DNA of 64,000 nucleotides from Burkholderiales bacterium. GTDB taxonomy: Bacteria > Pseudomonadota > Gammaproteobacteria > Burkholderiales > Burkholderiaceae_C. This document shows positions 1-55,530 of this stretch, in pieces. A program made the position numbers and the translations under genes. The stretch spans positions 62,001 to 126,000 of the forward strand of contig JACRAY010000022.1 of the NCBI GenBank assembly GCA_016213325.1, read 5' to 3'. The notes under the pieces were generated by a model. That model ran no database searches. It was given only the letters and a program-made list of their open reading frames with translations, and was not told where the DNA came from. Numbering within the stretch: the first letter of the stretch is position 1; each line of letters begins with the position of its first letter.

Positions 1-655
1 CAAAGCGGCGACTGGGAATGCGCGCCTGCAGCTTCTGTCCGGCTTCGCTCGCCAGGAAGTCCCTGTTCAAGTCGGTCACCACGTAGCCGGGCAACAATGC
101 GTTGACGCGGATGCGATGCCGCGCAAGTTCGAGCGCCATCGCCTTGGTGGCCTGGACCACGCCAGCCTTCGAGATCGCGTACGGCGCAACGCCTCCTGCA
201 ACGCGCTCGCCGAGGATAGACGCCACATTGACGATGCTGCCACCGCGGTTCGCGGCGATCATTCGGCGCGCCGCCTCGCAAGCGACCAGCCAAGACCCCT
301 TCAGGTTGGTGTCCACGACACGATCGAAGTCTTCCTCGGTCTGCTGCAGCAGCGGCTTGGTCACGGTGACGCCTGCGTTATTCACGAGCACGTCCGCCGC
401 GCCCCACGAGGCAAGTTCATCGAAGCAACGCGATACGCTCGTTGCGCTCGTGACGTCCAGTACGAGCGGGCGCGCCTGACCTCCGCTCGCCTGGATCCTG
501 GCGACCAGCGGCTCGAGCATGTCGATGCGCCGGGCAGCGACAGCTATGCGAGCACCAGCCTGTGCGAGCACGACGGCGAAGTGCGCGCCGAGCCCGCCGG
601 AGGCCCCCGTCACCAGGGCGATCTTGCCTTCCAGGCTGATTAGCCCGGCGCTCAC
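1..655 (-). CDS. SDR family oxidoreductase, 3' end outside window
   Basis: NAD(P)-dependent short-chain dehydrogenase/reductase, about 218 codons visible; the C-terminus runs off the left edge, so the ORF track misses it. The GTG start (655-653) overlaps the TGA of the upstream acyl-CoA dehydrogenase as GTGA, which implies translational coupling. Translation of the minus strand shows the glycine-rich motif TGASGGLG near residue 17, NNAG, and the active-site YAISK. It is probably a 3-hydroxyacyl-CoA dehydrogenase/FabG-like enzyme acting after the dehydrogenase in a beta-oxidation-like sequence. The family is clear; the substrate is inference. Confidence 0.85.
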   Translation of the reverse strand, partial: MSAGLISLEGKIALVTGASGGLGAHFAVVLAQAGARIAVAARRIDMLEPLVARIQASGGQARPLVLDVTSATSVSRCFDELASWGAADVLVNNAGVTVTKPLLQQTEEDFDRVVDTNLKGSWLVACEAARRMIAANRGGSIVNVASILGERVAGGVAPYAISKAGVVQATKAMALELARHRIRVNALLPGYVVTDLNRDFLASEAGQKLQARIPSRRF

Positions 656-1836
656 GCGACGCCTCCAATGCGTTCCTGCGCGTTCTGCACGATCTTGCGC
701 GCGAGGCTCCAGCGGTGTACTTCACTGGGGCCGTCGTAGATCCGGAAAGCCCGCATGTCCATGAAGATCCGCATCACTGCGGACTCGGCGGTGACGCCGC
801 GGCCTCCGAGGATCTGCACGCAACGGTCGACGACACGCCACTGGGCTTCCGAGCAGACGACTTTCGCCCGGCTGGACTCGAAGTTGCACTTGTGCCCCTG
901 GTCGAGCATCCAAGCCGTGTGCCAGATGTGCAGGCGGGAGGTTTGCAGATCCATATCGTTGTCGGCCAGCATGAAACCAACGCCTTCGTGCTCGGCGAGC
1001 GGTTTCCCGAATGCCTGGCGTTGCGACGCGTACGCGACAGCCTCATCGTGAGCGCGGCGTGCCTGCCCCAGCCAACGCATGCAATGCGTCAAGCGTGCTC
1101 GCGCAAGCCGGATCTGCGCATACCGGAAGCCCTTGCCGATTTCCCCGAGGACGTCGGCGGCGGGAATGCGTACCTCCTTGAAGTCCAGCACGCCGTGTCC
1201 GCCGGCGAAGCAGCGGTCCATCGCATCCATGTTGCGCACGAGTTCGATGCCGGGCCGATTCATGTCGGTCAGGAACATGGTGGCGGATCCGTCCTCCATG
1301 CGTGCCATGACGATGCAGTAGTCGGCGCCTTCCGCTCCAGTGATGAACCATTTGCGACCATTGATGACGTAGTGGTCCCCGTCTCGCACGGCGCGGGTGG
1401 CCAGCATCGACGGGTCTGAGCCGGCACCGCCGTCTGGCTCGGTCATGGCGAAGCATGAGCGCAGGCGTCCGGCAACCTGGAGCCGCAGCCAACGCTCCTT
1501 TTGGTCGCGCGTGGCCACCGCCTCCATGAGGTGGATACTGCCTTCGTCGGGCGCATGGATGTTGAGCGCTGTGGGCCCGAGCCAGGAGTAGCCCGCCTCC
1601 TCGAAAACGGCTGCCTTGGCGACGTTGCTGAGGCCGAGCCCCCCCATTTCCACAGATGCATGCGGCGTGAGCAGGCCGGCGGCGCGGGCGCGGCCCACGA
1701 GTTCGGCTCGAAGTTCGGGGGTCGGGCCGTGGCCGGAATGGTCCTCACGGGTCTCGATCGGGATGATCTGCTCGGCAATGAAGCGCCGGGTGCGCTGCTG
1801 CAGTTCGGTGATTTCCGGTGAAAGCTGGAAGTCCAT
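652..1836 (-). CDS. acyl-CoA dehydrogenase
   Basis: FAD-dependent acyl-CoA dehydrogenase of 394 residues, normal for the family, which oxidises an acyl-CoA to the 2-enoyl-CoA. The N-terminal helical domain starts MDFQLSPEITELQQ. The mid-domain carries CFAMTEPDGGAGSD, typical of the FAD/substrate-binding strand, and the C-terminal domain carries QILGGRGVTAESAVMRIFMDMRAF. I chose the ATG at 1836 over the track start at 1893 because AAAAGG lies just upstream and the extra 19 residues do not resemble the family. It is followed by an overlapping SDR gene and is divergent from the CocE-type hydrolase gene. Confidence 0.9.
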   Translation of the reverse strand: MDFQLSPEITELQQRTRRFIAEQIIPIETREDHSGHGPTPELRAELVGRARAAGLLTPHASVEMGGLGLSNVAKAAVFEEAGYSWLGPTALNIHAPDEGSIHLMEAVATRDQKERWLRLQVAGRLRSCFAMTEPDGGAGSDPSMLATRAVRDGDHYVINGRKWFITGAEGADYCIVMARMEDGSATMFLTDMNRPGIELVRNMDAMDRCFAGGHGVLDFKEVRIPAADVLGEIGKGFRYAQIRLARARLTHCMRWLGQARRAHDEAVAYASQRQAFGKPLAEHEGVGFMLADNDMDLQTSRLHIWHTAWMLDQGHKCNFESSRAKVVCSEAQWRVVDRCVQILGGRGVTAESAVMRIFMDMRAFRIYDGPSEVHRWSLARKIVQNAQERIGGVA

Positions 1837-2041
1837 GGATGCCTTTTCTATGATCGATCTAGAACAAGATTGTAGGATGATTTTGCCCTTCAAGTTATGG
1901 CACTTTCAAGCAAGGATGGCGCTTCGGTGCAATCGCCAACGTCGGCGTTCCGGGAGACTGAGGTCATAAATGACGCATCTCACGGAGACACAGCCTCGCT
2001 GGCCCCAACCGCCATCGGCCCACTGAGCAGGTCAAGACATC
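1837..2041. promoter_or_regulatory. divergent intergenic region
   Basis: About 205 bases between the divergent acyl-CoA dehydrogenase and CocE-type genes. No gene is visible. Read on the minus strand, two CTTGAA repeats occur 16 bases apart near 1885-1910, and a short palindrome TGATCGATC lies near 1850. They are candidate regulator or promoter elements but I cannot assign a regulator. Confidence 0.3.
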
Positions 2042-3802
2042 ATGTCCAATAGATCCATTGAATCGCAGCGCGGCCCGTTCGAGGTCACTCGGGAGGACGA
2101 TCTCGCGATGGCCACTCGCGATGGGACGGTCCTGCGGGCGGACGTCTACCGTCCCGCCGCTTCCGGGCCTCTTCCGGTGCTTTTCCGGCGGACTCCCTAC
2201 GGAAAGCGGCTCAACGATCTTGCCGCGGACTTCAGCGAGGCGCGCTACTTCGCCTCGCACGGCTATCTGGTTGTCGTACAGGACACCCGTGGACGGTTCA
2301 CGTCAGAGGGGGCTTGGTACCCTTTGATCTACGAGGCGCGCGACGGCTACGACGCCATCGAGTGGGCGGCTGCGCTGCCCGGTTCCAGCGGAGTGGTCGG
2401 CACATTCGGCCAGTCCTATGGAGCCATCGCCCAGTACCTCGCTGCCACCCAGCGACCGCCGCACCTGAAGACCTGCATCCCCGTCTCCGCGTACCAGCTG
2501 GCGTTCGAGAACTACTGGTACAACGGCGGCGCACTCGAACTGGGCTGGATGCTGAGCTACTTCGTGAACATGGCCGAAGCGGTTCTGAGGCAAGAGGGCG
2601 ACGAAAGCGCGATCGCCGATCTCGCGAAGCTCAAGGTCGACCCGAATCAGCGGTTCTCCCCGCTGACTGAAGAAACCCTGAGGCACCTGCCGATCACGGA
2701 TTGGGTCGACCGCCTCGGGCGAGGAGCGCCGTTCCTGCGGGACATCCTGTCGCACCCGACCGATGGCCCGTACTGGTGGGCGACGGACCTCAGCCGACAG
2801 TTGTTCAACATGAACGTTCCGATGCTGCACATCGGCTCCTGGTATGACATCGCTAACCGGGACACCCCGCTGTACTTCAAAGGGCTGCAGACAAGCGCAC
2901 TGGGCGAGTCTGCACGTGCCGGGCAAGCACTCCTCATGGGCCCGTGGGCGCACCAGTTGCCGTTCAACCAGCCGACATCTGGCGGAACCGGCGACATCGA
3001 CTTTGGCCCCGAAGCGGCGGTGTCGCTGCTCGACGTACAGCTGAAATGGTTCGATCACTACCTCAAGTTGGATGGCAGGGACCTGCCCCGCTCACCGGTT
3101 CGCATCTTTGTCATGGGTGAGAACCGGTGGCGCGACGAGCGCGAATGGCCGCTCGCCCGTACCGTGTTCACCCCCTATTACCTGCACAGCGGCGGTTCAG
3201 CCAACTCATTGCACGGTGACGGAAGTCTGTCCACGTTGCCGCCTGACGACCAGCCCTCCGACAATTTTCATTACAACCCGGACGACCCCGTGCCGAGCGC
3301 AGGCGGTCGAATCGTGGGCAGTGGGGTCGTTGATCAGAGAAAGAACCAGGCCCGCTCCGACGTGCTGGTGTACACCGGACCAGAACTCACCCAGGACCTG
3401 GAGATCACCGGCCCTGTCACGGTCTACCTGCACGCCGCGACCACAGCTCCGGACACCGACTTCGTCGCGGTGCTCTCCGACGTCCGACCCGACGGTTACG
3501 CCCAGAACCTCGCCGAAGGCATTGTGCGCGGCCGCTTCCGCGAGTCCTACGACAACCCGACCCTCCTGCACCCTGGCACCCCATACCTGTTCCGGATCCA
3601 GTTGTGGAACATCAGCCACGTGCTGCGGGTAGGCCACTGGCTCCGCTTGCACATCACCTCGAGTGACTTTCCCCGCTGGGACCGCAATGCCGGCACCGGC
3701 GCCCCAACCGGAACCGACACGGCCACCCATCCCGCGGACCAGACTGTGCTGCACGACCGCGCGCACCCGTCCCACGTCTTGCTCCCGGTCATCCCGCGAT
3801 GA
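2042..3802 (+). CDS. CocE/NonD family (X-Pro dipeptidyl-peptidase-like) hydrolase
   Basis: Serine hydrolase of 586 residues, the usual length for cocaine-esterase/glutaryl-7-ACA-acylase type enzymes that cleave esters or amides. The N-terminal alpha/beta-hydrolase domain carries the nucleophile elbow GQSYGA with Ser125. The C-terminal half (EITGPVTVYLHAATTAPDTDF onward) is the jelly-roll domain of this family. No signal peptide is seen, so it is probably cytoplasmic. An acyl-CoA ligase follows after 25 bases, suggesting the acid released here is activated to its CoA thioester (inference). The protein looks similar to actinobacterial relatives, which would fit transfer, but this was not tested. 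Confidence 0.87.
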   Translation: MSNRSIESQRGPFEVTREDDLAMATRDGTVLRADVYRPAASGPLPVLFRRTPYGKRLNDLAADFSEARYFASHGYLVVVQDTRGRFTSEGAWYPLIYEARDGYDAIEWAAALPGSSGVVGTFGQSYGAIAQYLAATQRPPHLKTCIPVSAYQLAFENYWYNGGALELGWMLSYFVNMAEAVLRQEGDESAIADLAKLKVDPNQRFSPLTEETLRHLPITDWVDRLGRGAPFLRDILSHPTDGPYWWATDLSRQLFNMNVPMLHIGSWYDIANRDTPLYFKGLQTSALGESARAGQALLMGPWAHQLPFNQPTSGGTGDIDFGPEAAVSLLDVQLKWFDHYLKLDGRDLPRSPVRIFVMGENRWRDEREWPLARTVFTPYYLHSGGSANSLHGDGSLSTLPPDDQPSDNFHYNPDDPVPSAGGRIVGSGVVDQRKNQARSDVLVYTGPELTQDLEITGPVTVYLHAATTAPDTDFVAVLSDVRPDGYAQNLAEGIVRGRFRESYDNPTLLHPGTPYLFRIQLWNISHVLRVGHWLRLHITSSDFPRWDRNAGTGAPTGTDTATHPADQTVLHDRAHPSHVLLPVIPR

Positions 3803-3827
3803 CCAACCAATGACGAATGGAGAAAGA

Positions 3828-5414
3828 ATGAATTCAGATCCCAGGTCACTGTCTTTCGAGCCCCTAAGCCCACTCTCGTTCCTCGACCGCGCGGCAGCAG
3901 TGCATGGGTCCCGCATCGCAGTGGTCGATGGCGATCGCCGATGGACCTATGCGGAGTTTCGTGACCGGTGCCGCCGCCTGGCGGGCGCGCTCGCCCCGCT
4001 GGCCGAGGGACGCCCGGTCGCGATCCTCGCCCCCAACACACACGTCATGCTCGAAGCGGCCCATGGCGTGCCGTGGGCGGGTGCACCACTGGTGACGATC
4101 AACACCCGCCTGTCCGCAGACGAGGTCATCTACATCCTCGAGCACTCCGAAAGCGCGGTGCTGTTGCACGATCCGCAGCTCGACGAACTGGTTACCACCG
4201 TGGTCGACCGCATGGCACAACCACCCCGGCTCGTGCGGGCCGGGCCCGGCGACGGTGGTTCCTACGAAAACCTGCTCGCCGAAGCGACACCGATGGGCAT
4301 CGCACCAGCCGACGAACGCTCGCTCTTATCCATCAACTACACCTCCGGGACGACCGGACGCCCCAAAGGCGTCATGTACCACCATCGCGGCGCCTACCTT
4401 CAGGCGCTGGCCATGGTCGCCCACACCGGCTTGACGGCGTCCTCGGCCTACCTGTGGACGGTTCCGATGTTTCACTGCAACGGGTGGACTTTCCCATGGG
4501 CGGTGACCGCCGCGGGCGCAAAGCACGTCTGCTTGCCCAAGGTCGACGCCGCGGTGGCCTGGCGACTCATCAGAGAGGATGCCGTGACACACCTGTGCGG
4601 CGCCCCCGCGGTGTTGTCCATGCTTGTGAACGCGCCTGAGGCGCCCGACCGCCACGCGGGTAGTGATGTCATCCGGTTCGTGATCGGCGGAGCGCCCGCG
4701 AGCCCATCCCTGCTGGCAGCCGCCGACAACATGGGTATCGACGTCACCCAAGTCTACGGACTGACCGAGACCTACGGGCCGGCCATGCTCTGCGACTGGC
4801 ATCCGGAGTGGAGCAAACTGCCTACCGAGGACCGATCCCGCCTTCGAGCCCGGCAGGGCGTGGCGAACTTTGTCGGGCTGACAGCGCGGGTGGTTGGGAC
4901 CGACGGGCGAGACGTCCCGGCGGATGGCGCGACCATGGGGGAGATCCTGCTGCGCGGGAACAATCTGATGCTGGGCTACTTCAAGGATGAAGCGGCCACC
5001 ATCGCCGCTGCGCCGGACGGGTGGTTCCGTTCCGGCGACCTCGGAGTTCTGCACCCCGACGGCTACCTTGAGCTGCGCGACCGGAGCAAGGACGTGATCA
5101 TCTCGGGTGGCGAGAACATCACGTCAATCGAGGTGGAACAGGCCATCGCGAGTCACCCCGCCGTTCTCGAAGTCGCCGTGGTGGGAGCCCCTGATGACCG
5201 CTGGGGCGAAGTGCCGGTGGCGTTCGTCGTCCTGCGTCCAGCCGCAAAGGCCAGTGAGCAGGACATCGTCGACCACGTCAGGTCGCGGCTCGCGCGGTTC
5301 AAGGTGCCCAAGCGAGTGGTGTTCGGCGAACTACCGCGGACGTCCACCGGGAAGATCCAGAAACACGTCCTCCGTGAGCGCGAGTGGGCCGGACGTGCCC
5401 GCCGGATCGCTTGA
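3828..5414 (+). CDS. AMP-dependent acyl-CoA synthetase/ligase
   Basis: ANL-superfamily acyl-CoA ligase of 528 residues (ATP + acid + CoA to acyl-CoA). The P-loop-like motif YTSGTTGRPKGV is near residue 170, VYGLTETYGP follows mid-protein, WFRSGDLG marks the hinge region, and TSTGKIQK near the C-terminus supplies the adenylation lysine. The track start at 3663 lies inside the CocE gene. The ATG at 3828 is preceded by GGAG at 5 bases and begins a family-like N-terminus. It is likely co-transcribed with the hydrolase upstream and the enoyl-CoA hydratase downstream. The medium-chain fatty-acid or aromatic-acid type cannot be separated by eye. Confidence 0.9.
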   Translation: MNSDPRSLSFEPLSPLSFLDRAAAVHGSRIAVVDGDRRWTYAEFRDRCRRLAGALAPLAEGRPVAILAPNTHVMLEAAHGVPWAGAPLVTINTRLSADEVIYILEHSESAVLLHDPQLDELVTTVVDRMAQPPRLVRAGPGDGGSYENLLAEATPMGIAPADERSLLSINYTSGTTGRPKGVMYHHRGAYLQALAMVAHTGLTASSAYLWTVPMFHCNGWTFPWAVTAAGAKHVCLPKVDAAVAWRLIREDAVTHLCGAPAVLSMLVNAPEAPDRHAGSDVIRFVIGGAPASPSLLAAADNMGIDVTQVYGLTETYGPAMLCDWHPEWSKLPTEDRSRLRARQGVANFVGLTARVVGTDGRDVPADGATMGEILLRGNNLMLGYFKDEAATIAAAPDGWFRSGDLGVLHPDGYLELRDRSKDVIISGGENITSIEVEQAIASHPAVLEVAVVGAPDDRWGEVPVAFVVLRPAAKASEQDIVDHVRSRLARFKVPKRVVFGELPRTSTGKIQKHVLREREWAGRARRIA

Positions 5415-5453
5415 CCGACCAGCGCTTTTTCTTTTCCCACCAGAGGAGTATCC

Positions 5454-6242
5454 ATGCCACATCTGAGAGTCCAGATCGAACGCCAAGTCGCGACCATTGT
5501 CCTGGACAATCCGCCGCAGAATCGCATCGGTGACCAGATGGTCGAGGAGCTCGCCGCAGCGATAGAGGCCATCGGGCGAAGCGACGCGCGCGCAGTCCTC
5601 ATCCGCGCCGAAGGAGACAACTTCAGCTTCGGCGGCGACATCATGCCCTGGCCGGACGACGACATGCACGCACTGCGTGCGCGCTTCGAGCGCTTCATGT
5701 CGGTGTTCAACCTATTCGAGCGTCTGCCACTGCCGGTTGTCGCCGCGGTTCGGGGCTTGTGCTTCGGCGGTGCCCTGGAACTGGCCCTGCGCGCCGACGT
5801 GATCTTCGCCTCCGAAACGGCGGCCTTCGGTCATCCGGAGCAAACGCTGGGCATCGTCACCTTGCTCGGCGGCGTCTATCGGGCCGCTGAACGTTCGGGT
5901 CGTTCCCGCGCAGCCGAATGGGCATTGACGTCCGAGAAAGTGCCGGCGGCCACGATGGAACGCTTCGGCATCGTGAATCGCGTCGTCGCCGACGCAGACT
6001 TGATCAGCGAAGCGACGGCGTTTGCCGAAAAGATCGCTCGGGGCCCCACGCGCGCGCATGCAGCCCACAAGGCCTTGCTGCGCATCTGGGCAGTGGGTGG
6101 TGTGGCTGCCGCCGACGAAGCGATGTTCGACATCGCCATGCCGCTGTTCGAGACGGAAGACGTCAAGGCGGGGCTGGCGTCAGCGGTCAAGGCATTGAAA
6201 GCCGGCCAGCCTCGACCGGTTCTGGACTTCAAGGGGCGTTGA
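5454..6242 (+). CDS. enoyl-CoA hydratase/isomerase family protein
   Basis: Crotonase-superfamily protein of 262 residues, preceded by AGAGGAG. It contains the CoA-binding/oxyanion segment GDNFSFGGDI and the second oxyanion region VVAAVRGLCFGGALELALRADV. The usual catalytic Glu pair of true hydratases is not obvious: FGHPEQTLGI aligns with the second region, with Glu present. Hydratase, isomerase or hydrolase function therefore remains open. It sits third in the hydrolase-ligase-crotonase run and probably works on the CoA ester made by the ligase. Confidence 0.85.
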   Translation: MPHLRVQIERQVATIVLDNPPQNRIGDQMVEELAAAIEAIGRSDARAVLIRAEGDNFSFGGDIMPWPDDDMHALRARFERFMSVFNLFERLPLPVVAAVRGLCFGGALELALRADVIFASETAAFGHPEQTLGIVTLLGGVYRAAERSGRSRAAEWALTSEKVPAATMERFGIVNRVVADADLISEATAFAEKIARGPTRAHAAHKALLRIWAVGGVAAADEAMFDIAMPLFETEDVKAGLASAVKALKAGQPRPVLDFKGR

Positions 6243-40357: not shown

Positions 40358-41050
40358 ATGAAACGGATCCTTGCAGCTCCTGTTCCCGCCAAGCCGAAGT
40401 CCGCGCCGCGCCGCGCGGCGCCTGCGGCGACGCCGATGCCCGAGATGCCAGCCGAGCGCCTGCTCGAGGCGGCGGTGGCGCTGTTCGCGCAGCACGGCTT
40501 CGATGCGGTCAGTACGGGGGCAGTGGCAACCGCCGCCGGCCTCACCCAGTCGATGGTGCACTACCACTTCGGCACGAAGGAAAAGCTCTGGAAGGCGGCC
40601 GTGGAGCACCTCATGCATGCGCGCGGAAACATGTTTTCCCTGAACCTGGAAGACCTGCGGGACGTGGATGCCCTTTCGCGCCTGAAGGTGATGCTGCGCC
40701 GTTTCATTTCCGCCAATGCGGCGGACCCTGACCTCACGCGGATTCTCATTCATGAGGGCATGAACGATTCGCCACGCCTGAAGTGGCTCGCGAAGCGCTT
40801 CATGGTCCGCGGCTACGCGACCTTCAACGCCGCCATCGACTCGGCAATCGCCGCGGGGGTGGTGCGCAAGCTGCCCGTGCGAGACGTGACCAACATCATC
40901 GTCGGTGCTTGCGTGCTCACCTTCACGCTGAGCCGGTTGCTCCACGAGGTGTATGGCGAGATGCCCACGACTCCCGAGGCGGTTTCCTCGCTCAGTGATA
41001 CCTTGCTCGAAGTGCTGTTCAAGGGCCTGGAAGCGAAGCCCAAGCCCTGA
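40358..41050 (+). CDS. TetR/AcrR family transcriptional regulator of the two-armed island
   Basis: Regulator of 230 residues. An Ala/Pro-rich N-terminal extension (APVPAKPKSAPRRAAPAATP) precedes the helix-turn-helix STGAVATAAGLTQSMVHYHFGTKEKLW. The C-terminal ligand domain (NLEDLRDVDALSRLKVMLRRFIS) is of a type common in Burkholderiales with unknown effectors. It sits between the two arms and is convergent with the minus arm. Shared dyad motifs upstream of both arms and of this gene make it the likely common repressor. Confidence 0.9.
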   Translation: MKRILAAPVPAKPKSAPRRAAPAATPMPEMPAERLLEAAVALFAQHGFDAVSTGAVATAAGLTQSMVHYHFGTKEKLWKAAVEHLMHARGNMFSLNLEDLRDVDALSRLKVMLRRFISANAADPDLTRILIHEGMNDSPRLKWLAKRFMVRGYATFNAAIDSAIAAGVVRKLPVRDVTNIIVGACVLTFTLSRLLHEVYGEMPTTPEAVSSLSDTLLEVLFKGLEAKPKP

Positions 41051-41103
41051 GCCGGGCTGCTACCTGGCGGGGATCACCGGCACGAGCCCGAAGCTAGACA
41101 TCG

Positions 41104-42249
41104 TCAGGTATTTTCGTTGGAGAAGATGATCGTCGAGCTCGCCGCAAACATGCCGCCGACGCCATGAGCCACCGAAATCTTCGCGCCCTGGACTTGCGCA
41201 GGCGCGATTCCGCGCATCTGGCGGATGCTTTCCTGCAGCGCATACATGCCATACATGCCCGAATGCATGTAGCTGAGCCCGCCGCCGTTCGTATTCAGCG
41301 GCAGTTTGCCGCCGGGGCGCGTGTGCCCTTCACGAATGAACCCCGCCGCCTCGCCGGGCCGGCAGAACCCTAGGTCCTCCAGGCCGTACAGCGGCAGGTG
41401 CGCGAACGCGTCGTAGATCATCAGGTGGTCCACGTCTGCATGGGAGATGCCGGCTTGTGCGAAAGCGTTGCGTCCCGACACGCGAAAAGCCTTGGAGGAG
41501 CTGAAGTCCTCCATCTGGCTGATCATGTTGCCCTCGACGCTTTCGCCGGTGCCGATGACATAGACCGGCCGTGCGTGCAAGTCGGCCGCTCGATCGGCGG
41601 CCGACAGGACGATGGCACCGCCGCCGTCCGTGACCAGGCAGCACATCAACATCCGGAAGGGGTACGCGATCATCTTCGAAGACATCACGTCATCGACGGT
41701 GATCGGGGCCTTCTGGCTGGCTCGCGGGTTGAGCGCGGCCCATTCGCGCTGGACAACGGCGACTCGAGCGAGGTCTTCCTGTTCGTAGCCGCGGTCCTTC
41801 AAGTAGCGCAGCACAGGGAGCGTGAACATCGTTGGCGGGCCGTAGGTACCGAACGGGGTCTCGAACTGCTGCGGCAGGCTGCCCGGCATCGGGTGGGGGA
41901 ACCCGGCGGCGGCAACGCGGGAGCGCCCACTTTCGCCGTGGGTGATCAGGACGTGGCGGCACAAACCGGACTCGATGGCCGCCATCGCATGACGCACGTG
42001 CATCATGAAGGAGCATCCGCCGACGCCCGTGGCGTCGATCCAGGTCGGGGTGATGCCCAGGTAGAGCGCCAGCGACTCAGGGGTTTCACCCGCTGTCGCG
42101 ATTCCGTCGATGTCGGACGGCTTCAGCCCCGCATCCGCAAGCGCGTTCAACGCAGCGTCCGCGTGCAGCTGGAGCTGCGACATGTGCGGAAGCTTTCCCA
42201 TCTCGGTCGTTTCGGCGGCGCCGACGACCGCTGCGCGCGCGCGGTTCAT
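41104..42249 (-). CDS. thiolase-like protein (lipid-transfer/aldolase type)
   Basis: Thiolase-fold protein of 381 residues. It lacks the canonical CxS nucleophile motif and the C-terminal CxGGG: the corresponding regions read TGVGGCSFMMHV and VAHGVGGMFA. LPLNTNGGGLSYMHSGMYG is characteristic of the SCP-x/Ltp2-like group. Its ATG overlaps the DUF35 gene stop. In steroid side-chain degradation Ltp2 is a retro-aldolase partnered by a DUF35 domain, so an aldolase rather than thiolytic role is the best inference. Last gene of the minus arm. Confidence 0.85.
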   Translation of the reverse strand: MNRARAAVVGAAETTEMGKLPHMSQLQLHADAALNALADAGLKPSDIDGIATAGETPESLALYLGITPTWIDATGVGGCSFMMHVRHAMAAIESGLCRHVLITHGESGRSRVAAAGFPHPMPGSLPQQFETPFGTYGPPTMFTLPVLRYLKDRGYEQEDLARVAVVQREWAALNPRASQKAPITVDDVMSSKMIAYPFRMLMCCLVTDGGGAIVLSAADRAADLHARPVYVIGTGESVEGNMISQMEDFSSSKAFRVSGRNAFAQAGISHADVDHLMIYDAFAHLPLYGLEDLGFCRPGEAAGFIREGHTRPGGKLPLNTNGGGLSYMHSGMYGMYALQESIRQMRGIAPAQVQGAKISVAHGVGGMFAASSTIIFSNENT

Positions 42250-42659
42250 CGCGCGTCTCCGGCGAGCTTGAAAAGCGGCAGGGAAATCTTGTCGTTCATG
42301 GCCTCGAAGGTGACCTCGACGGGATGATCCAGCGGCAGCAGCGCGGGGTCACAAGGCGTCCCCACGATGTTCGTCATCATCTTCGGCCCCTCTTCCAGCT
42401 TGACCACTGCGATGGTGTAGGGCGGCTGGAAGCCGGGGGCCGGCAAGTGGGAAATGACGTAGCTGTGAAGCGTTCCTCGGCCGCTGGCCCGGACCACTTC
42501 CACGTGCCTGGACGTGCACGCGGGACAGAAGGGCCTGGGAGGGAAGTAGGTATTGCCGCAGTCGCGGCAGGACTGGAGTCGAAGTTCACCGACGCGCGTG
42601 CCTTCCCAGAAATGGGCGGTTTCGGGCGTGGGTACGGGCAGGGGGCGATCGGTGGTCAT
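42246..42659 (-). CDS. Zn-ribbon domain-containing OB-fold protein (DUF35)
   Basis: Small protein of 137 residues with an N-terminal zinc ribbon (CRDCGNTYFPPRPFCPAC, two CxxC pairs) followed by an OB-fold (GRGTLHSYVISHLPAPGFQPPY). DUF35 proteins partner thiolase-like enzymes, for example the ChsH2-Ltp2 aldolase complex. Its stop overlaps the thiolase-like start by 4 bases, supporting a fixed-ratio complex. Confidence 0.88.
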   Translation of the reverse strand: MTTDRPLPVPTPETAHFWEGTRVGELRLQSCRDCGNTYFPPRPFCPACTSRHVEVVRASGRGTLHSYVISHLPAPGFQPPYTIAVVKLEEGPKMMTNIVGTPCDPALLPLDHPVEVTFEAMNDKISLPLFKLAGDAR

Positions 42660-42673
42660 CGGGGCCGGACCTC

Positions 42674-43135
42674 TCAGGCGGGCTTGCCTGCCATCAGCAG
42701 TGCCTGGTCGTATGTCAGCACGGTTTCGCCGCGCTGGTTCTTTGTGGTGATGGTCATTGCCACGATGCCACGGCCCGGCTTGTTCGACTCGCGCGTGCTG
42801 GTGACCGTGGCCGTCGTGAGCACCGTGTCGCCAAACCGGACCGGGCTGGAGAAGCGCACGTTGTCCATGCCGAGGAAGCCGATGGTCGTTCCTTCGAACA
42901 TGCCGGTCTGGTTCATCTGGCCGGACGTGACGGCGAGAGTCAGCAGGCCGTGGCCGATGCGCACGCCGAACATGCCCTTTTCTGCATACACCTGGTTCAC
43001 GTGGACGGGGTTGAAGTCACCGGACAGGCCGGCGAAAAGGTTCACGTCGCCGCTCTCGATGGTGCGGCCCCCGGTCTCGATCACTTCGCCGACCTCGAAG
43101 TCGTGCCAGTATTTTGCGTTGCGCGATTTGCTCAT
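42674..43135 (-). CDS. MaoC family dehydratase (R-specific enoyl-CoA hydratase-like)
   Basis: Hot-dog fold protein of 153 residues. SGDFNPVHVNQVYA contains the DxNPxH hydratase dyad and FGVRIGHGLLT the conserved loop. Start ATG 43135 (MSKSRNAKYWHDFEVG) has AGGAG upstream; the long track version runs into the CoA-transferase gene. Expected to hydrate a 2-enoyl-CoA, giving the 3-hydroxyacyl-CoA that a retro-aldolase could cleave. Confidence 0.88.
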   Translation of the reverse strand: MSKSRNAKYWHDFEVGEVIETGGRTIESGDVNLFAGLSGDFNPVHVNQVYAEKGMFGVRIGHGLLTLAVTSGQMNQTGMFEGTTIGFLGMDNVRFSSPVRFGDTVLTTATVTSTRESNKPGRGIVAMTITTKNQRGETVLTYDQALLMAGKPA

Positions 43136-43152: not shown

Positions 43153-44217
43153 TTAAAGAAATGCCGTCGTGATGGGCACTGGATTGCGTGTGCCGGCTGA
43201 GGGGTGGGTGACATCCACGGAGAAGCGCGGCGTCGGACCCGATTGGGATACGCCTTCGATCTCGATCAACGAGCCCCGCGCGGCGAGATGCGCATGGCGC
43301 GGCGCTTCGAGATAGCTCAGGACGGGCGACACGCAGTGGTCGCCCTGCTCGAGCAGCGCGCCCCACTCGTCGCGGGTGCGCGTCTTGAAGATTCGCGAGA
43401 AAGTCTCACGCAAGGCCTTGCGATCCTGTGACGCATGGCGCTTCGGAGGAGGGGCGAGGCCGACCGCGCCGCATAGCCTGGTGTAGAAGGGCTCTTCGAG
43501 CGGACCGACAGCTACGAATTTGCCGTCAGCGCACTCATAGACGCTGTAGTCGGGCAGGCCGCCATCGAACAGGTTCGATTCGCGCGTGTCTGTCCATTCG
43601 CCATCGGCGATCTGCTCGTGGATCGCAGTCATGAGCGAAACGATCCCGTCGCACATGGCGGCATCGACCACCTGGCCCCTGCCGGTGCGGCGGGCAGCCA
43701 TCAGCGCGGCCAGGATGCCGCTGACCAGGAACATCGATCCGCCGGCAAAATCCCCGATCAAGTTCAACGGCAGGACGGGGCGTTCGCGCGGCCCGATGGC
43801 TGCAAGGGCACCCGTGACGGCGATGAAATTGATGTCATGACCTGCGGTCGACCTCAGCGGGCCGGCCTGTCCCCAGCCTGTCACCCGCCCGTAGACGAGT
43901 CTCGGGTTGTCTGCGATCAGGACTTCGGGTCCGAGGCCCAGGCGCTCCATCGTGCCTGGACGAAAGCCTTCGATCAGTGCGTGGGCACCGCTGACGAGCT
44001 GGCGGACGCACGCGAGATCGTCCGGGTTCTTGAGGTCTGCCGCATAGCGTTTCGCACGGCCTCGCTGGGAGATTGCCGTGGCTGGCGCGGGCTGCGCGTC
44101 GGGCCGTTCGATCCGGATCACGGTTGCACCCATGTCCGCGAGCAGCATGGCCGCATAGGGGCCCGGGCCGAGCCCTGCGAACTCGACGACGGTGAGGTCG
44201 TTCAACGGCCCGGTCAT
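43153..44217 (-). CDS. CaiB/BaiF family CoA-transferase, alpha-methylacyl-CoA racemase-like
   Basis: Type III CoA-transferase/racemase of 354 residues. VVEFAGLGPGPYAAMLLADMGATVIRIERPD opens the fold. GHDINFIAVTGAL and AAMCDGIVSLM match the His and Asp regions of alpha-methylacyl-CoA racemase, so epimerisation of a 2-methylacyl-CoA is more likely than CoA transfer. A 2-methyl branched acyl-CoA substrate would agree with the neighbouring side-chain-type enzymes. ATG overlaps the ligase stop (ATGA). Confidence 0.87.
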   Translation of the reverse strand: MTGPLNDLTVVEFAGLGPGPYAAMLLADMGATVIRIERPDAQPAPATAISQRGRAKRYAADLKNPDDLACVRQLVSGAHALIEGFRPGTMERLGLGPEVLIADNPRLVYGRVTGWGQAGPLRSTAGHDINFIAVTGALAAIGPRERPVLPLNLIGDFAGGSMFLVSGILAALMAARRTGRGQVVDAAMCDGIVSLMTAIHEQIADGEWTDTRESNLFDGGLPDYSVYECADGKFVAVGPLEEPFYTRLCGAVGLAPPPKRHASQDRKALRETFSRIFKTRTRDEWGALLEQGDHCVSPVLSYLEAPRHAHLAARGSLIEIEGVSQSGPTPRFSVDVTHPSAGTRNPVPITTAFL

Positions 44218-45770
44218 TGCGACTCGCTTCGACGTTGCAGTTCACGTCGGTCGACCTTGCCGGTCAGGCCGGTGGGCATGGCGGTGAGGAAGTGGAAGGC
44301 CTTCGGCACCTTGTAGGCACTCAACTGCCGCACATCTTTCAGGTGGGCCCTGACCGAATCGGCTGTCACGTCCGGACGGGTCGCGACGATGTACGCCTCG
44401 ACCCTCTGGCCAAACTTCGCGTCCTTGCAGCCGACAACCACGCATGAGGACACGCCCTCCAGCGACATGATTGCGGCCTCGATTTCTTCGGCGTGAACCT
44501 TGATGCCGCCGGTATTGATGACGTTGTCGGCCCGGCCACTCATCCACAGGTAGCCATCCTCGTCGAGCTGCCCCATGTCGCCACTGCGCCACCAGCCGTC
44601 GACGAATTTCTTCGCGGTCAAGGCTGGCTCACGCCAGTAGCCCATCGCCACCGTGGAACCGGTGACAACGATCTCACCTCGCTCGCCGGGCGGCAGCACA
44701 TCGTCAATCGAACCATCCAGGTTCACGATGCGCATGTCGGCACCGATCGTGGGCAAGCCGGTCGAACCCAGTTTTCGGCCATCGGCCATGTCTTCTGCGG
44801 TGACGGTGACCGCGCAGCCGTTGCCCGACTCGCCTGCCATGTAGATCGCCGTTACGCGTGGGCAGAAGCGCGCCGTGATGCGGGCGATGTCGTCGGCGGT
44901 GGGAAGTTCTCCGCCCACGCAGGTCAGCCGCACCTTGGTGAAGTCCCGCTGCGGCGTCACGACGTCGAAGACCATGCGCCACATCGTGGGGACCATGTTC
45001 AGGATCGTCACGCCCTCGCGCTCGGAAAGATCGACGACACTCGCGGCTTCGAAGCGCCTGACGAGCAAGAGCCTTGCCCGGCCGGCCAGGGCTGGCAGGA
45101 CGAACATGACCCAACCGGCGAATGACGGGTTCATGGGGATCAGGATCGTGTCGTGCCTGTGGATGCCCTCCAGCAGTGCCTGACCCGCGAGAGCACATGC
45201 CAACAGCGAGGCTTGGCTGTGCATGACACCCTTTGGCTTGCCCGTGCTTCCCGATGAAAGAATGACGGCCGCCACCGCGCCCGGGTCGGGACGTTGGCTT
45301 GCGTACTCCAGGGGCTTGGCGGCCTCGAGAAGCGCTCTCCAGCTTTTTCCGTCGTCGAGCACCAGCGTCTGGATGGAGAGGCCACTCTCTTGCACAGCCG
45401 CCGCGACGGCCGACGTGAATTCGGCGTCGTGCACGACGAACTTCGCACCCAGCCATTGCAGCGCTTCGGCGATTTGCTCGACAGAGTTGTTTCGTGTGTG
45501 CAGGTTGGCAGCGACGTAGCCGCCAGTGAACGTGCCGTACCAGGCAACCATGTGCGCCACCGAGCCCAGGCAGAGAAAGGCGACCGCATCACCAGGGACC
45601 AGCGACGCATCGCGCAACGCGGAGGCGAAGCGCAGCGACTGGTCGAGGGCCTGATGGCCGGTGAAGCTGCCGCCCTGGTCATCGACGAAGAAAGGTTGCT
45701 GTCCTTTCCAGCGGCAGTTGCGCACATACAGGTCCGCAATCGACTCGCATTTCGCGAAACGCGTGCTCAT
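44214..45770 (-). CDS. acyl-CoA synthetase (AMP-dependent ligase)
   Basis: ANL-family ligase of 518 residues. P-loop VILSSGSTGKPKGVMHSQ, AIYMAGESGNG in place of YGxTE, WWRSGDMGQLDEDGYLWMSGR at the hinge and TGLTGKVDRRELQRR with the C-terminal Lys. It activates the imported acid for the minus arm. The upstream Bug receptor gene is 31 bases away, so uptake and activation are probably co-transcribed. Confidence 0.9.
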   Translation of the reverse strand: MSTRFAKCESIADLYVRNCRWKGQQPFFVDDQGGSFTGHQALDQSLRFASALRDASLVPGDAVAFLCLGSVAHMVAWYGTFTGGYVAANLHTRNNSVEQIAEALQWLGAKFVVHDAEFTSAVAAAVQESGLSIQTLVLDDGKSWRALLEAAKPLEYASQRPDPGAVAAVILSSGSTGKPKGVMHSQASLLACALAGQALLEGIHRHDTILIPMNPSFAGWVMFVLPALAGRARLLLVRRFEAASVVDLSEREGVTILNMVPTMWRMVFDVVTPQRDFTKVRLTCVGGELPTADDIARITARFCPRVTAIYMAGESGNGCAVTVTAEDMADGRKLGSTGLPTIGADMRIVNLDGSIDDVLPPGERGEIVVTGSTVAMGYWREPALTAKKFVDGWWRSGDMGQLDEDGYLWMSGRADNVINTGGIKVHAEEIEAAIMSLEGVSSCVVVGCKDAKFGQRVEAYIVATRPDVTADSVRAHLKDVRQLSAYKVPKAFHFLTAMPTGLTGKVDRRELQRRSESQ

Positions 45771-45801: not shown

Positions 45802-46764
45802 TTATTCCGGCTTGATGCCGGCAGCCTCGACCAGATCGGCAGTGAGCTTCACGTCGGCCGCGATACGGTCGGCCAGTTCGCGCGGAGTGCTCGCGACCGG
45901 AGTCAGGCCGTTGGCTAGCATGTGCTTCTGCGCAAACTCGCGGTCTTGAAGGACCGCGGTGACGTCCTGGCTGATCTTGCGCACGACCGGTTCAGGGGTG
46001 CCGGCGGGAGCGTACAAGCCGTACCAGATACTGGCGAGCGCATACGGAGCGCCCTGTTCTGCAGTCGTGCTGACATCAGGGAAGAAGCTGTTTCGGGCCT
46101 TGCCAGCCATCGCCAGGGGCTTCAGCTTCCCGGCCTTGAAGTGTTGCCCGACGACGCCGTATCCCCCGCTTGCCAGCTGTACATCGCCCGCGATTGCCGC
46201 GCCGATGGAAAGCGAAACACCCTTGTACGGAACCGTCAGGATGTCGATCCGCTCACGCTTGTTGATGGCGTGGATCATGAGATCCGCCTGGCTGCCGCGA
46301 GCGAAGGAGCCGAACGACACCTTGCCGGGGTTCGCCTTTGCGTATGCGATCAGCTCGCGCAGGTTCGAAGCCGGAAACGCCGGGTGCGCCACGATGAAAA
46401 AGTCGGTCTGCGCCAGAAGCGAAATCGGGGTGAAGCTCTTGTCGGGGTCGTAGGGAAGCTTCTTGTAGAGGAATCGATTGATGACCGTAGTCGTGTCGAC
46501 GGTCGCGAGCAGCGTGTATCCGTCAGCGGGGGAACGGGCTACGAGATCGGCACCGATCAGCGAATCAGCACCTGGCCGGTTTTCAACGATCACCGGCTGC
46601 TTCCACCTGGTGGACAGCTCGACTGCCAAGGCCCGGTAGAGCTGATCCGAGCCACCCGCCTGGAATGGCACGATCAGCCGAACAGGCTTCGTGGGATAGG
46701 TATCCGCGAGTGCGGGAGCCAGTAGCCCCACAGCTGCCGCCAAAGTGAATGCGAGTTTCCACAT
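45802..46764 (-). CDS. Bug/TctC family tripartite tricarboxylate transporter substrate-binding protein
   Basis: Periplasmic receptor of 320 residues, first gene of the minus arm. Signal peptide MWKLAFTLAAAVGLLAPALA (cleavage after ALA), then YPTKPVRLIVPFQAGGSD, SPADGYTLL and ILTVPYKGVS. ATG 46764 with GGAGACA upstream is preferred to the track start at 46809. It is strikingly like the plus-arm receptor at 38481. No TctAB permease is in the window. Confidence 0.92.
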   Translation of the reverse strand: MWKLAFTLAAAVGLLAPALADTYPTKPVRLIVPFQAGGSDQLYRALAVELSTRWKQPVIVENRPGADSLIGADLVARSPADGYTLLATVDTTTVINRFLYKKLPYDPDKSFTPISLLAQTDFFIVAHPAFPASNLRELIAYAKANPGKVSFGSFARGSQADLMIHAINKRERIDILTVPYKGVSLSIGAAIAGDVQLASGGYGVVGQHFKAGKLKPLAMAGKARNSFFPDVSTTAEQGAPYALASIWYGLYAPAGTPEPVVRKISQDVTAVLQDREFAQKHMLANGLTPVASTPRELADRIAADVKLTADLVEAAGIKPE

Positions 46765-46807
46765 ATGTTGTCTCCGTTTGCCCAGTCGATGTTCAGGTGC
46801 CGTGATC

Positions 46808-46848
46808 ATAGATTAACCTATCGGCATTGTCAATTGAGTAATTGACAA
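46808..46848. promoter_or_regulatory. two dyads upstream of the minus arm
   Basis: ATAGATTAACCTAT (46808-46821) is a near-perfect dyad related to the motifs at 35674 and 40311. It is followed by the perfect inverted repeat TTGTCAATT-GAGT-AATTGACAA (46827-46848). Both lie 44-84 bases before the Bug receptor ATG, where a repressor would block the promoter. The second dyad, containing TTGACA on both strands, may overlap the -35 box. Confidence 0.6.
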
Positions 46849-47231
46849 CCTTGGCTTCGGCTTGCGATCCGCGGGGCGGGAGCGTGAGCACGGTCGCCCT
46901 GGCACTCCCCGGAACCCGCTGGAGTTCTACAGGACATCTGCTCGACGTGGCGGGACCGAATGGGAGGCGGCGCACCGGCAGGACCGCAGCGCTTCGCAAC
47001 GGGCCGGCTACTCGGCTTGTACCTTCAGCTGGACAGAGCTCCTGGTTGACATCCATAGATGTCTAGTGACGTCCAGGTGGTGTGGGGGTACGATGCGGGG
47101 TACCGGTCTGCGTTGCCGAAGAAAACTTCCGCGCTGACAGGTACTTACGCGCCCGATACTGCTGCCTCCTGCTCCGCCACTTCCTTCGTGCCCTGGTGGG
47201 GTACGATGACCCGGCCCTCCCGTCACCCACG
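46849..47231. other. intergenic region without a recognisable gene
   Basis: About 380 bases between the divergent minus arm and the first enolase-superfamily gene. Track ORFs here have no family resemblance. It holds the dyad GACATC-CATA-GATGTC (47048-47063) and a GGGTACGATGACCC element (47202-47215) that recurs as GGTTACGATAACC before the second copy of the downstream gene. Confidence 0.5.
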
Positions 47232-48368
47232 ATGAACCGGCCGTCCATCACCCTCGTCCGCCTGCGGCAGGTCGACCTGCCGCCCAAAGTCGTCCGCACG
47301 GACGGGATCCAGTCCTTTGTCACGCAGCAAACCGTGCTGCTCACGATCCGCTGCAGCGACGGCCTGGAAGGCACCGGCTATGCGTACACCATCGGCACCG
47401 GCGGGTCGTCGGTGCTGGCATTGCTGCACGACCACCTCGCGCCGCGCCTCGTCGGCCGCGACCCGCTCTCGGCCGAGGCCATCTGGAAAGACCTGTTCTT
47501 CCATACGCATGCCACCGCGGTCGGCGCCATCACGAGCCTGGCCCTCGCGTGCGTGGACACGGCCCTGTGGGACTGGCGCGGGCGCAGCCAGCAGCTTCCG
47601 TTGTGGCGGCTGCTGGGCGCGGCCCAACCGCGCGTTCCCGTGTACACGACCGAGGGCGGGTGGCTCCACCTTTCGCCGGCCGAACTGGTCGAGCAGTCGT
47701 TGGCCGCCAAGGCCGAAGGGTTCAAGGGTGCCAAGGTCAAGGTGGGCCGGCCGCATGTGAGCGAGGACCTCGCGCGCCTGGCTGCCGTGCGCGAAGCCGT
47801 CGGGTCCGGGTTCGAGCTGATGGTCGACGCCAACCAGGGCTTCACCCGCCCCGAGGTGGCCCGCCGCGCGGCGGCGTTCGCGCCGCTGGACCTGGCGTGG
47901 CTGGAAGAACCGCTGCCGGCCGAAGACGTCGCGGGCCACCGCATCCTGCGTGCCCAGACGCCCATCCCGGTGGCCGTGGGCGAGTCGATGTACCACATCG
48001 CGCAGTTCCGCGAGTACCTCGAGCAGGGTGCCTGCAGCATCGTGCAGCCCGACGTTGCCCGCATCGGCGGCATCACGCCATGGATCAAGGTGGCGCACAT
48101 GGCGGAGGGCTTCAACGTGCCCGTCTGCCCGCACTTCCTGATGGAGCTGCACGTCAGCCTCTCGGCGGCGGTGCCGAACGCCACGTGGGTCGAGTACATC
48201 CCGCAGCTGGATGACATCACGACCAGCCGCATCCGCGTCGAGGACGGCCATGCCTATCCGCCCGAGACGCCGGGCCTCGGGATCGAGTGGGATTGGGATG
48301 CGATCGCTGCGCGGCAGTGCGCGGACCTGCTGGTGCAAGCCGGCGCTGCTACTCCCCACCCAGCCTGA
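47232..48368 (+). CDS. mandelate racemase/muconate lactonizing enzyme family protein, copy A
   Basis: Enolase-superfamily enzyme of 378 residues that would abstract an alpha-proton from a carboxylate with Mg2+ help. KGAKVKVGRP carries the KxK base; metal ligands are in LMVDANQG, WLEEPLP and AVGESMY; the distal His is in PVCPHFLMELHVSL. This pattern fits the mandelate racemase subgroup. About 97% identical to the copy at 54415 (12 differences by eye in 371). The last seven residues (AATPHPA) come from reading into an antisense amidohydrolase remnant. ATG 47232 is chosen because both copies share it. Confidence 0.9.
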   Translation: MNRPSITLVRLRQVDLPPKVVRTDGIQSFVTQQTVLLTIRCSDGLEGTGYAYTIGTGGSSVLALLHDHLAPRLVGRDPLSAEAIWKDLFFHTHATAVGAITSLALACVDTALWDWRGRSQQLPLWRLLGAAQPRVPVYTTEGGWLHLSPAELVEQSLAAKAEGFKGAKVKVGRPHVSEDLARLAAVREAVGSGFELMVDANQGFTRPEVARRAAAFAPLDLAWLEEPLPAEDVAGHRILRAQTPIPVAVGESMYHIAQFREYLEQGACSIVQPDVARIGGITPWIKVAHMAEGFNVPVCPHFLMELHVSLSAAVPNATWVEYIPQLDDITTSRIRVEDGHAYPPETPGLGIEWDWDAIAARQCADLLVQAGAATPHPA

Positions 48369-50312: not shown

Positions 50313-50537
50313 GCGCAGGGACTTGCCGTGTTGCGCTCGCTGGGCATAGCGGATGACGATTCTCGAGTCAACCCGAACGGCGGCGCGATCGCACTGGGGC
50401 ATCCGCTCGGGGCATCCGGCGCGCGGCTGGCCACGACGGCAGTGAACCAGCTGCATGCAATCGGCAGTCGCTATGCGCTTTGCACGATGTGCATCGGCGT
50501 CGGGCAGGGCATCGCGGTCGCCATCGAACGCGTCTGA
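50301..50537 (+). pseudogene. 3' end of an acetyl-CoA acetyltransferase/thiolase gene
   Basis: The frame of track ORF 49947 turns thiolase-like only from [16 protein letters not shown] (50301) and continues [21 protein letters not shown], with the catalytic His, and [19 protein letters not shown], with the second Cys, then TGA. About 78 codons of a roughly 395-codon PcaF-type thiolase remain. Its left end lies within the 5' part of azlC, marking a recombination junction. Confidence 0.82.
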
Positions 50538-54257: not shown

Positions 54258-54414
54258 GCGTCCAGTTTGGTCGAAGTCGCGCCTGCCGCTTGTCGGCAGA
54301 AATCGCTTCATCGTCCATCAAGCCGCTGGCTGTGCAGCCCGCGACATGGATAGGGCAACAAAGTCGACGAACGCCTGGACCCGTGGGTTACGATAACCAA
54401 GCCCTCCTCCCACG

Positions 54415-55530
54415 ATGAACCGGCCGACCATCACCTCCGTGCGCCTGCGCCAGGTCGACCTGCCGCCCAAAGTCGTCCGCACGGACGCGATCCAGTCCTT
54501 CGTCACGCAACAAACGCTGTTGCTCACGATCCGCTGCAGCGACGGCCTGGAAGGCACCGGCTATGCGTACACCATCGGCACCGGCGGCTCGTCGGTGCTG
54601 GCATTGCTGCACGACCACCTCGCGCCGCGCCTCGTCGGCCGCGACCCGCTCTCGGCCGAGGCCATCTGGAAAGACCTGTTCTTCCATACGCACGCCACCG
54701 CGGTGGGCGCCATCACGAGCCTGGCCCTCGCGTGCGTGGACACGGCCCTGTGGGACTGGCGCGGGCGCAGCCAGCAGCTTGCCCTGTGGCGGCTGCTGGG
54801 CGCGGCCCAGCCGCGCGTTCCCGTGTACACGACCGAGGGCGGGTGGCTCCACCTGTCGCCGGCCGAACTGGTCGATCAGTCGCTGGCCGCCAAGGCCGAA
54901 GGGTTCAAGGGCGCCAAGGTCAAGGTGGGCCGGCCGCATGTCAGCGAAGACCTCGCGCGCCTGGCTGCCGTGCGCGAAGCCGTCGGGTCCGGGTTCGAGC
55001 TGATGGTCGACGCCAACCAGGGCTTCACCCGCCCCGAAGTGGCCCGCCGCGCGGCGGCGTTCGCGCCCCTGGACCTGGCGTGGCTGGAGGAACCGCTGCC
55101 GGCCGAAGACGTCGCGGGCCATCGCATGCTGCGCGCCCAGACAACCATCCCCGTGGCCGTGGGCGAGTCGATGTACCACCTTGCCCAGTTCCGCGAGTAC
55201 CTCGAGCAGGGCGCCTGCAGCATCGTGCAGCCCGATGTCGCCCGCATCGGCGGCATCACGCCCTGGATCAAGGTGGCGCACATGGCGGAGGCCTTCAACG
55301 TGCCCGTCTGCCCGCACTTCCTGATGGAGCTGCACGTCAGTCTCTCGGCGGCGGTGCCGAACGCCGCGTGGGTCGAGTACATCCCGCAACTGGACGACAT
55401 CACGACCAGCCGCATCCGCGTCGAGGATGGCCATGCCTGTCCGCCCGAGACGCCAGGCCTCGGGATCGAGTGGGATTGGGATGCGATCGCCGCGCGGCAG
55501 TGCGCGGACCTGCTGGTGCAAGCCGGCTGA
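54415..55530 (+). CDS. mandelate racemase/muconate lactonizing enzyme family protein, copy B
   Basis: Enolase-superfamily protein of 371 residues, about 97% identical to copy A at 47232, with the same KxK, metal ligands (VDANQG, LEEPLP, GESMYH) and distal His. The twelve replacements are mostly conservative and spare the active site. Similarity also covers about 30 bases upstream, including the start region. Copy B ends at QAG and is followed by a TPR gene after 7 bases, so it lacks the run-on tail of copy A and is probably the ancestral form. Reaction unknown; a hydroxyacid dehydratase or racemase is expected. Confidence 0.9.
   Translation: MNRPTITSVRLRQVDLPPKVVRTDAIQSFVTQQTLLLTIRCSDGLEGTGYAYTIGTGGSSVLALLHDHLAPRLVGRDPLSAEAIWKDLFFHTHATAVGAITSLALACVDTALWDWRGRSQQLALWRLLGAAQPRVPVYTTEGGWLHLSPAELVDQSLAAKAEGFKGAKVKVGRPHVSEDLARLAAVREAVGSGFELMVDANQGFTRPEVARRAAAFAPLDLAWLEEPLPAEDVAGHRMLRAQTTIPVAVGESMYHLAQFREYLEQGACSIVQPDVARIGGITPWIKVAHMAEAFNVPVCPHFLMELHVSLSAAVPNAAWVEYIPQLDDITTSRIRVEDGHACPPETPGLGIEWDWDAIAARQCADLLVQAG

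Follow-up and report, generated by a model that had tools for sequence, protein, structure and literature searches.

A DUF35-paired thiolase-like protein without a nucleophilic cysteine, encoded with a stand-alone hydratase and a racemase in a Burkholderiales bacterium, is a candidate acyl-CoA retro-aldolase

The closest described systems are aldolases that have the thiolase fold and are paired with a DUF35 protein. In Ltp2 the base is Tyr294 and the acid is Tyr344, while Tyr302 and Cys304 are essential in Sal; CtSal carries Gly at the nucleophile position, which its authors gave as the reason why thiolysis is impossible (PMC12329534). In the ibuprofen pathway of R. wittichii, propionyl-CoA is released by a retro-aldol step, and IpfD has been described as a retro-aldolase (PMC9195938). 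Separate DUF35 and aldolase genes, which an earlier note on the locus described here had taken as a sign of a new route, are already known from ChsH4/Atf1 (PMC10398937) and ipfE/ipfD (PMC9195938), and this limits the novelty of such an arrangement. A literature search for uncharacterised DUF35/thiolase-like aldolases found only the Sal paper, and a search for the gene set of thiolase, OB-fold protein, racemase, MaoC and CocE found nothing.

The locus lies in the window, a 64,000-nucleotide stretch of a Burkholderiales contig (JACRAY010000022.1), and its host is a soil-type bacterium. A single operon on the minus strand, running from 46767 to 41104, encodes a Bug/TctC-type solute-binding protein at its head (45802..46767; start codon uncertain, with an upstream ATG at 46809), an AMP-forming acyl-CoA ligase of 518 residues (44214..45770), a 354-residue homologue of alpha-methylacyl-CoA racemase, which is a family III CoA enzyme (43153..44217), and a trio consisting of a single-domain MaoC hydratase of 153 residues (42674..43135, ATG at 43135), a DUF35 protein of 137 residues (42246..42659) and a thiolase-superfamily protein of 381 residues without a nucleophilic Cys (41104..42249). 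The three adjacent genes and the 4-base overlap previously reported were confirmed, the DUF35 stop and the thiolase-like start sharing ATGA at 42249-42246; the ligase and family III CoA-enzyme genes also overlap by 4 bases. The overlap was considered as a hallmark of the DUF35-thiolase pair and dropped, as a permissive stop context was present in only 17 of 85 loci. Pfam identified MaoC_dehydratas in the MaoC gene (E 9e-25), OB_ChsH2_C (E 7e-17) and zf-ChsH2 (E 5e-13) in the DUF35 gene, and only the C-terminal domain Thiolase_C_1 (E 3e-58) in the thiolase-like gene. Compared with Variovorax sp. CF079, the thiolase-like and DUF35 genes had dN/dS values of about 0.05 and 0.06, and the MaoC proteins were 100% identical at a dS of 0.21, which indicates that the trio genes are real and under strong purifying selection. 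The nearest solved relatives of the ligase, among them feruloyl-CoA synthetase and FadD13, are too distant for its substrate to be named, and its specificity is not predictable.

Downstream of the trio, a TetR-family regulator on the plus strand (40358..41050) is convergent with the operon and is also found beside the gene set in loci L036, L037 and L043. In Variovorax sp. CF079 (L036:9150-10802) and Root411 (L037), a gene for a 550-residue CocE/NonD-family hydrolase lies intact between the thiolase-like and TetR genes. The window retains a 13-codon remnant of it on the minus strand (41060..41101), an in-frame fusion of the first few and the last approximately nine codons left by deletion of the gene. 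Based on this remnant, the original substrate of the operon may have been an ester. No aldehyde dehydrogenase or acyl-CoA dehydrogenase gene was found within the trio operon. A second CoA-catabolic cluster at 652-6242, which could supply functions absent from it, comprises an acyl-CoA dehydrogenase (652-1893, minus strand) and, on the plus strand, an intact CocE/NonD-type hydrolase (2042-3802), an AMP-forming ligase (3663-5414) and an enoyl-CoA hydratase-like gene (5454-6242). Elsewhere in the window, an enolase-superfamily (mandelate racemase-like) gene occurs twice (47196-48344 and 54383-55527), the DNA of the two copies matching at 95% over 1149 bases, and a C-terminal thiolase fragment that includes CIGVGQG (about 50350-50537, plus strand) has no thiolase N-terminal part in frame and looks like a gene remnant.

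For its active site, the thiolase-like protein was compared by alignment with Ltp2, Sal, IpfD, SCP2 thiolases encoded in its own genome and 7yvy, a thiolase that contains the Cys. Gly78 occupies the nucleophile column (codons of Gly78 and Cys79 at 42013..42018, minus strand), and Gly is found there in 81 of 81 relatives with at least 65% identity. The earlier note's statement that the canonical Cys motifs are lacking was borne out in that no conserved thiolase nucleophile appears on proper alignment, but Cys79 follows one residue later and the histidine of the thiolase GHP motif is kept as His329 in Y-M-H-S (codon 41263..41265, minus strand). This histidine, which aligns with Tyr344 of Ltp2 and Gln352 of Sal, is conserved in at least 98% of the same 81 relatives and invariant in a 41-row alignment. 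At the position of the HDxF/NEAF motif the protein reads Y279-D-A-F, unchanged in all 81 relatives, with Tyr279 (codon 41413..41415, minus strand) aligning with Tyr294 of Ltp2 and Tyr302 of Sal. Measured against SCP2-type and biosynthetic-type thiolases, the protein therefore has the GHP histidine and neither the Cys nucleophile found at the N-terminal end of the active-site helix nor HDxF or NEAF, while the features of the broad group of DUF35-bound thiolase-like aldolases (Gly in the nucleophile column, the YDxF Tyr and an adjacent DUF35 gene) are all present. In the close family Cys79 hardly varies, but across most of the wider clade Ser or Ala stands in its place, as in 4u4e and in a paralogue from the same genome, so that it is probably not catalytic. 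In this clade the motif reads YD[AS]F and the GHP column holds His. A pairing of Tyr279 as base with His329 as likely acid would vary on the two sites already described, Tyr/Tyr in Ltp2 and Tyr/Cys in Sal. The geometry suggested for His329 is read from the alignment, because its loop (residues 323-331) was poorly predicted in the structural model.

By sequence, the closest solved chains are 4u4e (a putative thiolase, E 1e-111), followed by Ltp2 (6ok1) and Sal (9myr). Single-sequence structure prediction was unusable (pLDDT 35), and an alignment-based AlphaFold model was used instead (mean pLDDT 74.9, pTM 0.81; residues 323-331 below pLDDT 50). In the fold ranking of this model, 4u4e again came out on top and the Sal-Shy and Ltp2-ChsH2 aldolases next, with all real thiolases behind them. 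Together with the matches of the DUF35 protein, these results uphold the previously noted likeness to Ltp2-ChsH2. To call the protein a member of the Ltp2 or Sal family would be an overstatement, since in a maximum-likelihood tree of 59 proteins it falls in a clade of its own (37 rows, support 99/99) with 4u4e and many paralogues, separate from Ltp2 and IpfD (98/81), Sal (94/94) and the thiolases (100/99), and its catalytic residues differ. A search of the genome with the thiolase-like query recovered a paralogue of the same clade and two thiolases with canonical Cys, and no gene of the Ltp2 or Sal type, in agreement with the non-steroid context proposed earlier.

The closest solved chains to the DUF35 protein are the DUF35 domains of Shy (9myr_B) and ChsH2 (6ok1_B), and like ChsH2-type proteins it has a four-Cys zinc ribbon (C31, C34, C45, C48) and an OB fold; the four cysteines are kept in most relatives. 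In 78 of 80 related loci its gene adjoins that of the thiolase-like protein, and both exceptions are contig ends, so that the pairing is not due to chance. The DUF35 protein presumably binds the thiolase-like subunit. Distances for the two proteins correlate at 0.88 over 85 loci, a value that is uncorrected for species relatedness and hence not counted as evidence of contact. On pIBU218 the DUF35 at the ipfE position (L127:17229-17627) has no zinc-ribbon cysteines, and zinc may accordingly be dispensable in some of these pairs.

The MaoC protein is closest to single-domain enzymes and has the dyad of (R)-specific hydratases, D40 and H45, in the motif D-x-N-P-x-H (here D40-F-N-P-V-H45). The racemase-like gene is likewise what it had been taken for, a true MCR/AMACR homologue (E 7e-96 to MCR 1x74) in which H127, D156 and E241 align with the three catalytic residues of MCR, His126, Asp156 and Glu241. 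The set of MaoC, DUF35, thiolase-like, racemase, ligase and TetR genes occurs in the same order in two Variovorax genomes and in a different order in Paraburkholderia solitsugae, and no close MaoC orthologue (E <1e-50) was found in any of 299 other Burkholderiales genomes sampled. Nearly all relatives have the DUF35-thiolase pair; the accompanying MaoC/racemase/ligase set is rarely seen. Among close relatives MaoC stands beside the pair in only a few loci and cannot be regarded as its conserved partner. In Alphaproteobacteria the pair is widespread in other settings, with cytochrome P450, acyl-CoA dehydrogenase, nitroreductase and SDR genes as neighbours, named from their likeness to genes with an annotation or a Pfam type and in some cases from reading of the sequence. 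More distant, plasmid-borne clade members lie near MaoC genes and CoA ligases or transferases and, in some cases, aldehyde dehydrogenases; loci L116, L118 and L131 are the same-clade examples with aldehyde dehydrogenase genes nearby.

On balance we lean towards a reading of the operon as a catabolic route for an external, probably alpha-branched, non-steroid carboxylic acid, in which a hydratase would be followed by a thiolase-like/DUF35 retro-aldolase. The Bug receptor would serve to acquire the acid, the ligase would convert it to the CoA thioester and the racemase would adjust the configuration at the alpha-carbon. MaoC would hydrate the alpha,beta-unsaturated acyl-CoA to the (3R)-3-hydroxyacyl-CoA, which the thiolase-like/DUF35 complex would then cleave between C2 and C3, yielding an aldehyde or ketone together with a shorter acyl-CoA. 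In this scheme the 3-hydroxyl group would lose its proton to Tyr279, and the acyl-CoA enolate would be protonated by His329, the histidine kept from thiolases that occupies the place of the Ltp2 acid Tyr344; the DUF35 protein might also recruit MaoC. It is the racemase that suggests an alpha-branched substrate. A 2-methyl-branched acid is plausible, and a methyl branch would give propionyl-CoA as the acyl-CoA product. An acyl-CoA dehydrogenase is missing from the operon, so that the double bond may already be present in the incoming substrate or the dehydrogenase may be encoded elsewhere, for example in the second cluster.

The YDxF Tyr, which is essential in Sal and Ltp2 and invariant in the relatives of the trio protein, argues for this retro-aldolase reading, and the aldehyde dehydrogenases near some clade members could take the aldehyde product. 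Against it, the operon itself leaves the fate of the product and the origin of the double bond unexplained, MaoC adjacency is limited to few loci among close relatives, the His329 loop is modelled with low confidence, and the residues that act as acid in Sal (Cys304) and in the oxyanion site of Ltp2 (His296) are both replaced by Ala281. Ala in place of either residue is compatible with retro-aldol cleavage, since IpfD also reads YDAF. The SDR genes near many relatives, possibly encoding 3-hydroxyacyl-CoA dehydrogenases, also fit a 3-ketoacyl-CoA route, and with them the idea that the protein is a real thiolase using the displaced Cys79 or another mechanism, as the NCBIfam names imply; the near-invariance of Cys79 in the close family and the kept GHP histidine point the same way. 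This is nevertheless unlikely given the loss of Cys79 across most of the wider clade and the combination of Gly in the nucleophile column with an aldolase-like Tyr at the HDxF/NEAF residue, and the closest named model, PRK06158 'acetyl-CoA acetyltransferase', scores 399.8, under its cut-off of 421.

Alternatively, the substrate could be a 2-arylpropionyl-CoA cis-diol or another alpha-aryl acyl-CoA, from which acyl-CoA would be released as by IpfD/IpfE, rather than an aliphatic 2-methyl-3-hydroxyacyl-CoA. We consider this quite unlikely: no ring-hydroxylating dioxygenase was seen in the operon, the MaoC gene would be left idle, IpfD groups with Ltp2 (98/81), its acid column holds Tyr instead of His and its DUF35 has no zinc cysteines, although YDAF is common to both proteins, the operon once had a CocE-type esterase, and the racemase is an MCR homologue, for which 2-arylpropionyl-CoA epimerase-like is among the PDB names. 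Some other non-thiolytic reaction of the thiolase fold, in which, for example, an alkylmalonyl-type CoA ester is decarboxylated and MaoC and the racemase work independently, finds a precedent in nucleophile-free relatives such as TbSLP, which has weak malonyl-CoA decarboxylase activity; it appears very unlikely in view of the lack of this activity in CtSal (PMC12329534) and of the conserved Tyr that matches the aldolases. A steroid side-chain aldolase module with Ltp2 or Sal function is highly improbable, even though the fold and the DUF35 and MaoC partners are as in Ltp2-ChsH1/ChsH2 and Sal-Shy, because the protein lies in a separate clade, the single catalytic MaoC has neither the inert partner domain of ChsH2 nor the DUF35 fusion of Shy, the zinc ribbon has four Cys in place of the Cys3His1 of Shy, and the genome search with the thiolase-like query found no other Ltp2- or Sal-type gene.

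Returning to the retro-aldolase reading, it is possible, though somewhat less likely than not, that the whole 4U4E/trio clade forms a distinct family of DUF35-dependent acyl-CoA retro-aldolases, with Tyr and the retained thiolase His as a third catalytic solution, and that here, with a stand-alone hydratase and racemase, such an enzyme cuts alpha-branched non-steroid acids. Hundreds of genomes label members of this clade thiolase or acetyl-CoA acetyltransferase; we found no report of activity tests on any of them and no function assigned to 4U4E. The Tyr and His arrangement in a large clade is unusual, as is its seldom-seen association with a hydratase encoded on its own and a racemase. If the proposal is true, a large group labelled thiolases would instead be a different type of carbon-carbon lyase, and it would be wrong to count these proteins as beta-oxidation thiolases in pathway reconstructions. 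Such non-steroid CoA-dependent aldolases would also be useful for biocatalysis in both directions, and the roles of Tyr and His would be directly testable, as the 4U4E crystal structure is available for the clade.

Compared with known systems, the trio protein is nearest to 4U4E from Sphaerobacter thermophilus, its closest solved relative, which is about 48% identical, belongs to the same clade and shares the Gly nucleophile column and the retained His, with YDSF at the motif and Ser where the trio protein has Cys79. Ltp2-ChsH2 (6OK1), acting on the cholesterol side chain, has the same fold, Gly column, YDxF Tyr and four-Cys DUF35 zinc ribbon, but Ltp2 carries YDHF and the acid Tyr344 in place of YDAF and His329, and ChsH2 is a MaoC-DUF35 fusion with a separate ChsH1, whereas MaoC and DUF35 are free-standing in the trio. 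The bile acid aldolase Sal-Shy of Comamonas testosteroni (9MYR) likewise shares the fold, Gly column, catalytic Tyr, DUF35 partner and a single catalytic MaoC, and differs in YDCY with the essential Cys304, in Gln352, and in the fusion of DUF35 to MaoC in Shy. Atf1/ChsH4 of Mycolicibacterium, involved in sterol side-chain degradation, resembles the trio in its stand-alone 138-residue DUF35 adjoining the aldolase gene, yet Atf1 is Sal-like (56% to Sal1) and acts on steroids (PMC10398937). For Ltp3-Ltp4 of Rhodococcus, compared here by description, an aldol-lyase has been proposed that follows a hydration step and acts at a branched carbon to release propionyl-CoA or acetyl-CoA (PMC6678751), in this case for C24-branched sterols and with a heteromeric thiolase-like pair. 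In its proposed chemistry the trio is like IpfD/IpfE of pIBU218, a non-steroid system that releases propionyl-CoA by retro-aldol cleavage and has stand-alone DUF35 and thiolase-like genes, a CoA ligase and YDAF (ipfD being identified by its position, flanked by the dioxygenase genes on one side and the DUF35 and ligase genes on the other), although it employs a dioxygenase and not a hydratase. About 12 kb away from the ipf genes, the same plasmid carries a second, Ltp2-like thiolase-like/DUF35 pair (YDHF, Tyr; L127:4939-6503), next to which lie a CaiB gene and an enoyl-CoA hydratase. The thiolase-like protein of the trio plausibly works like Ltp2 and Sal while belonging to neither family.
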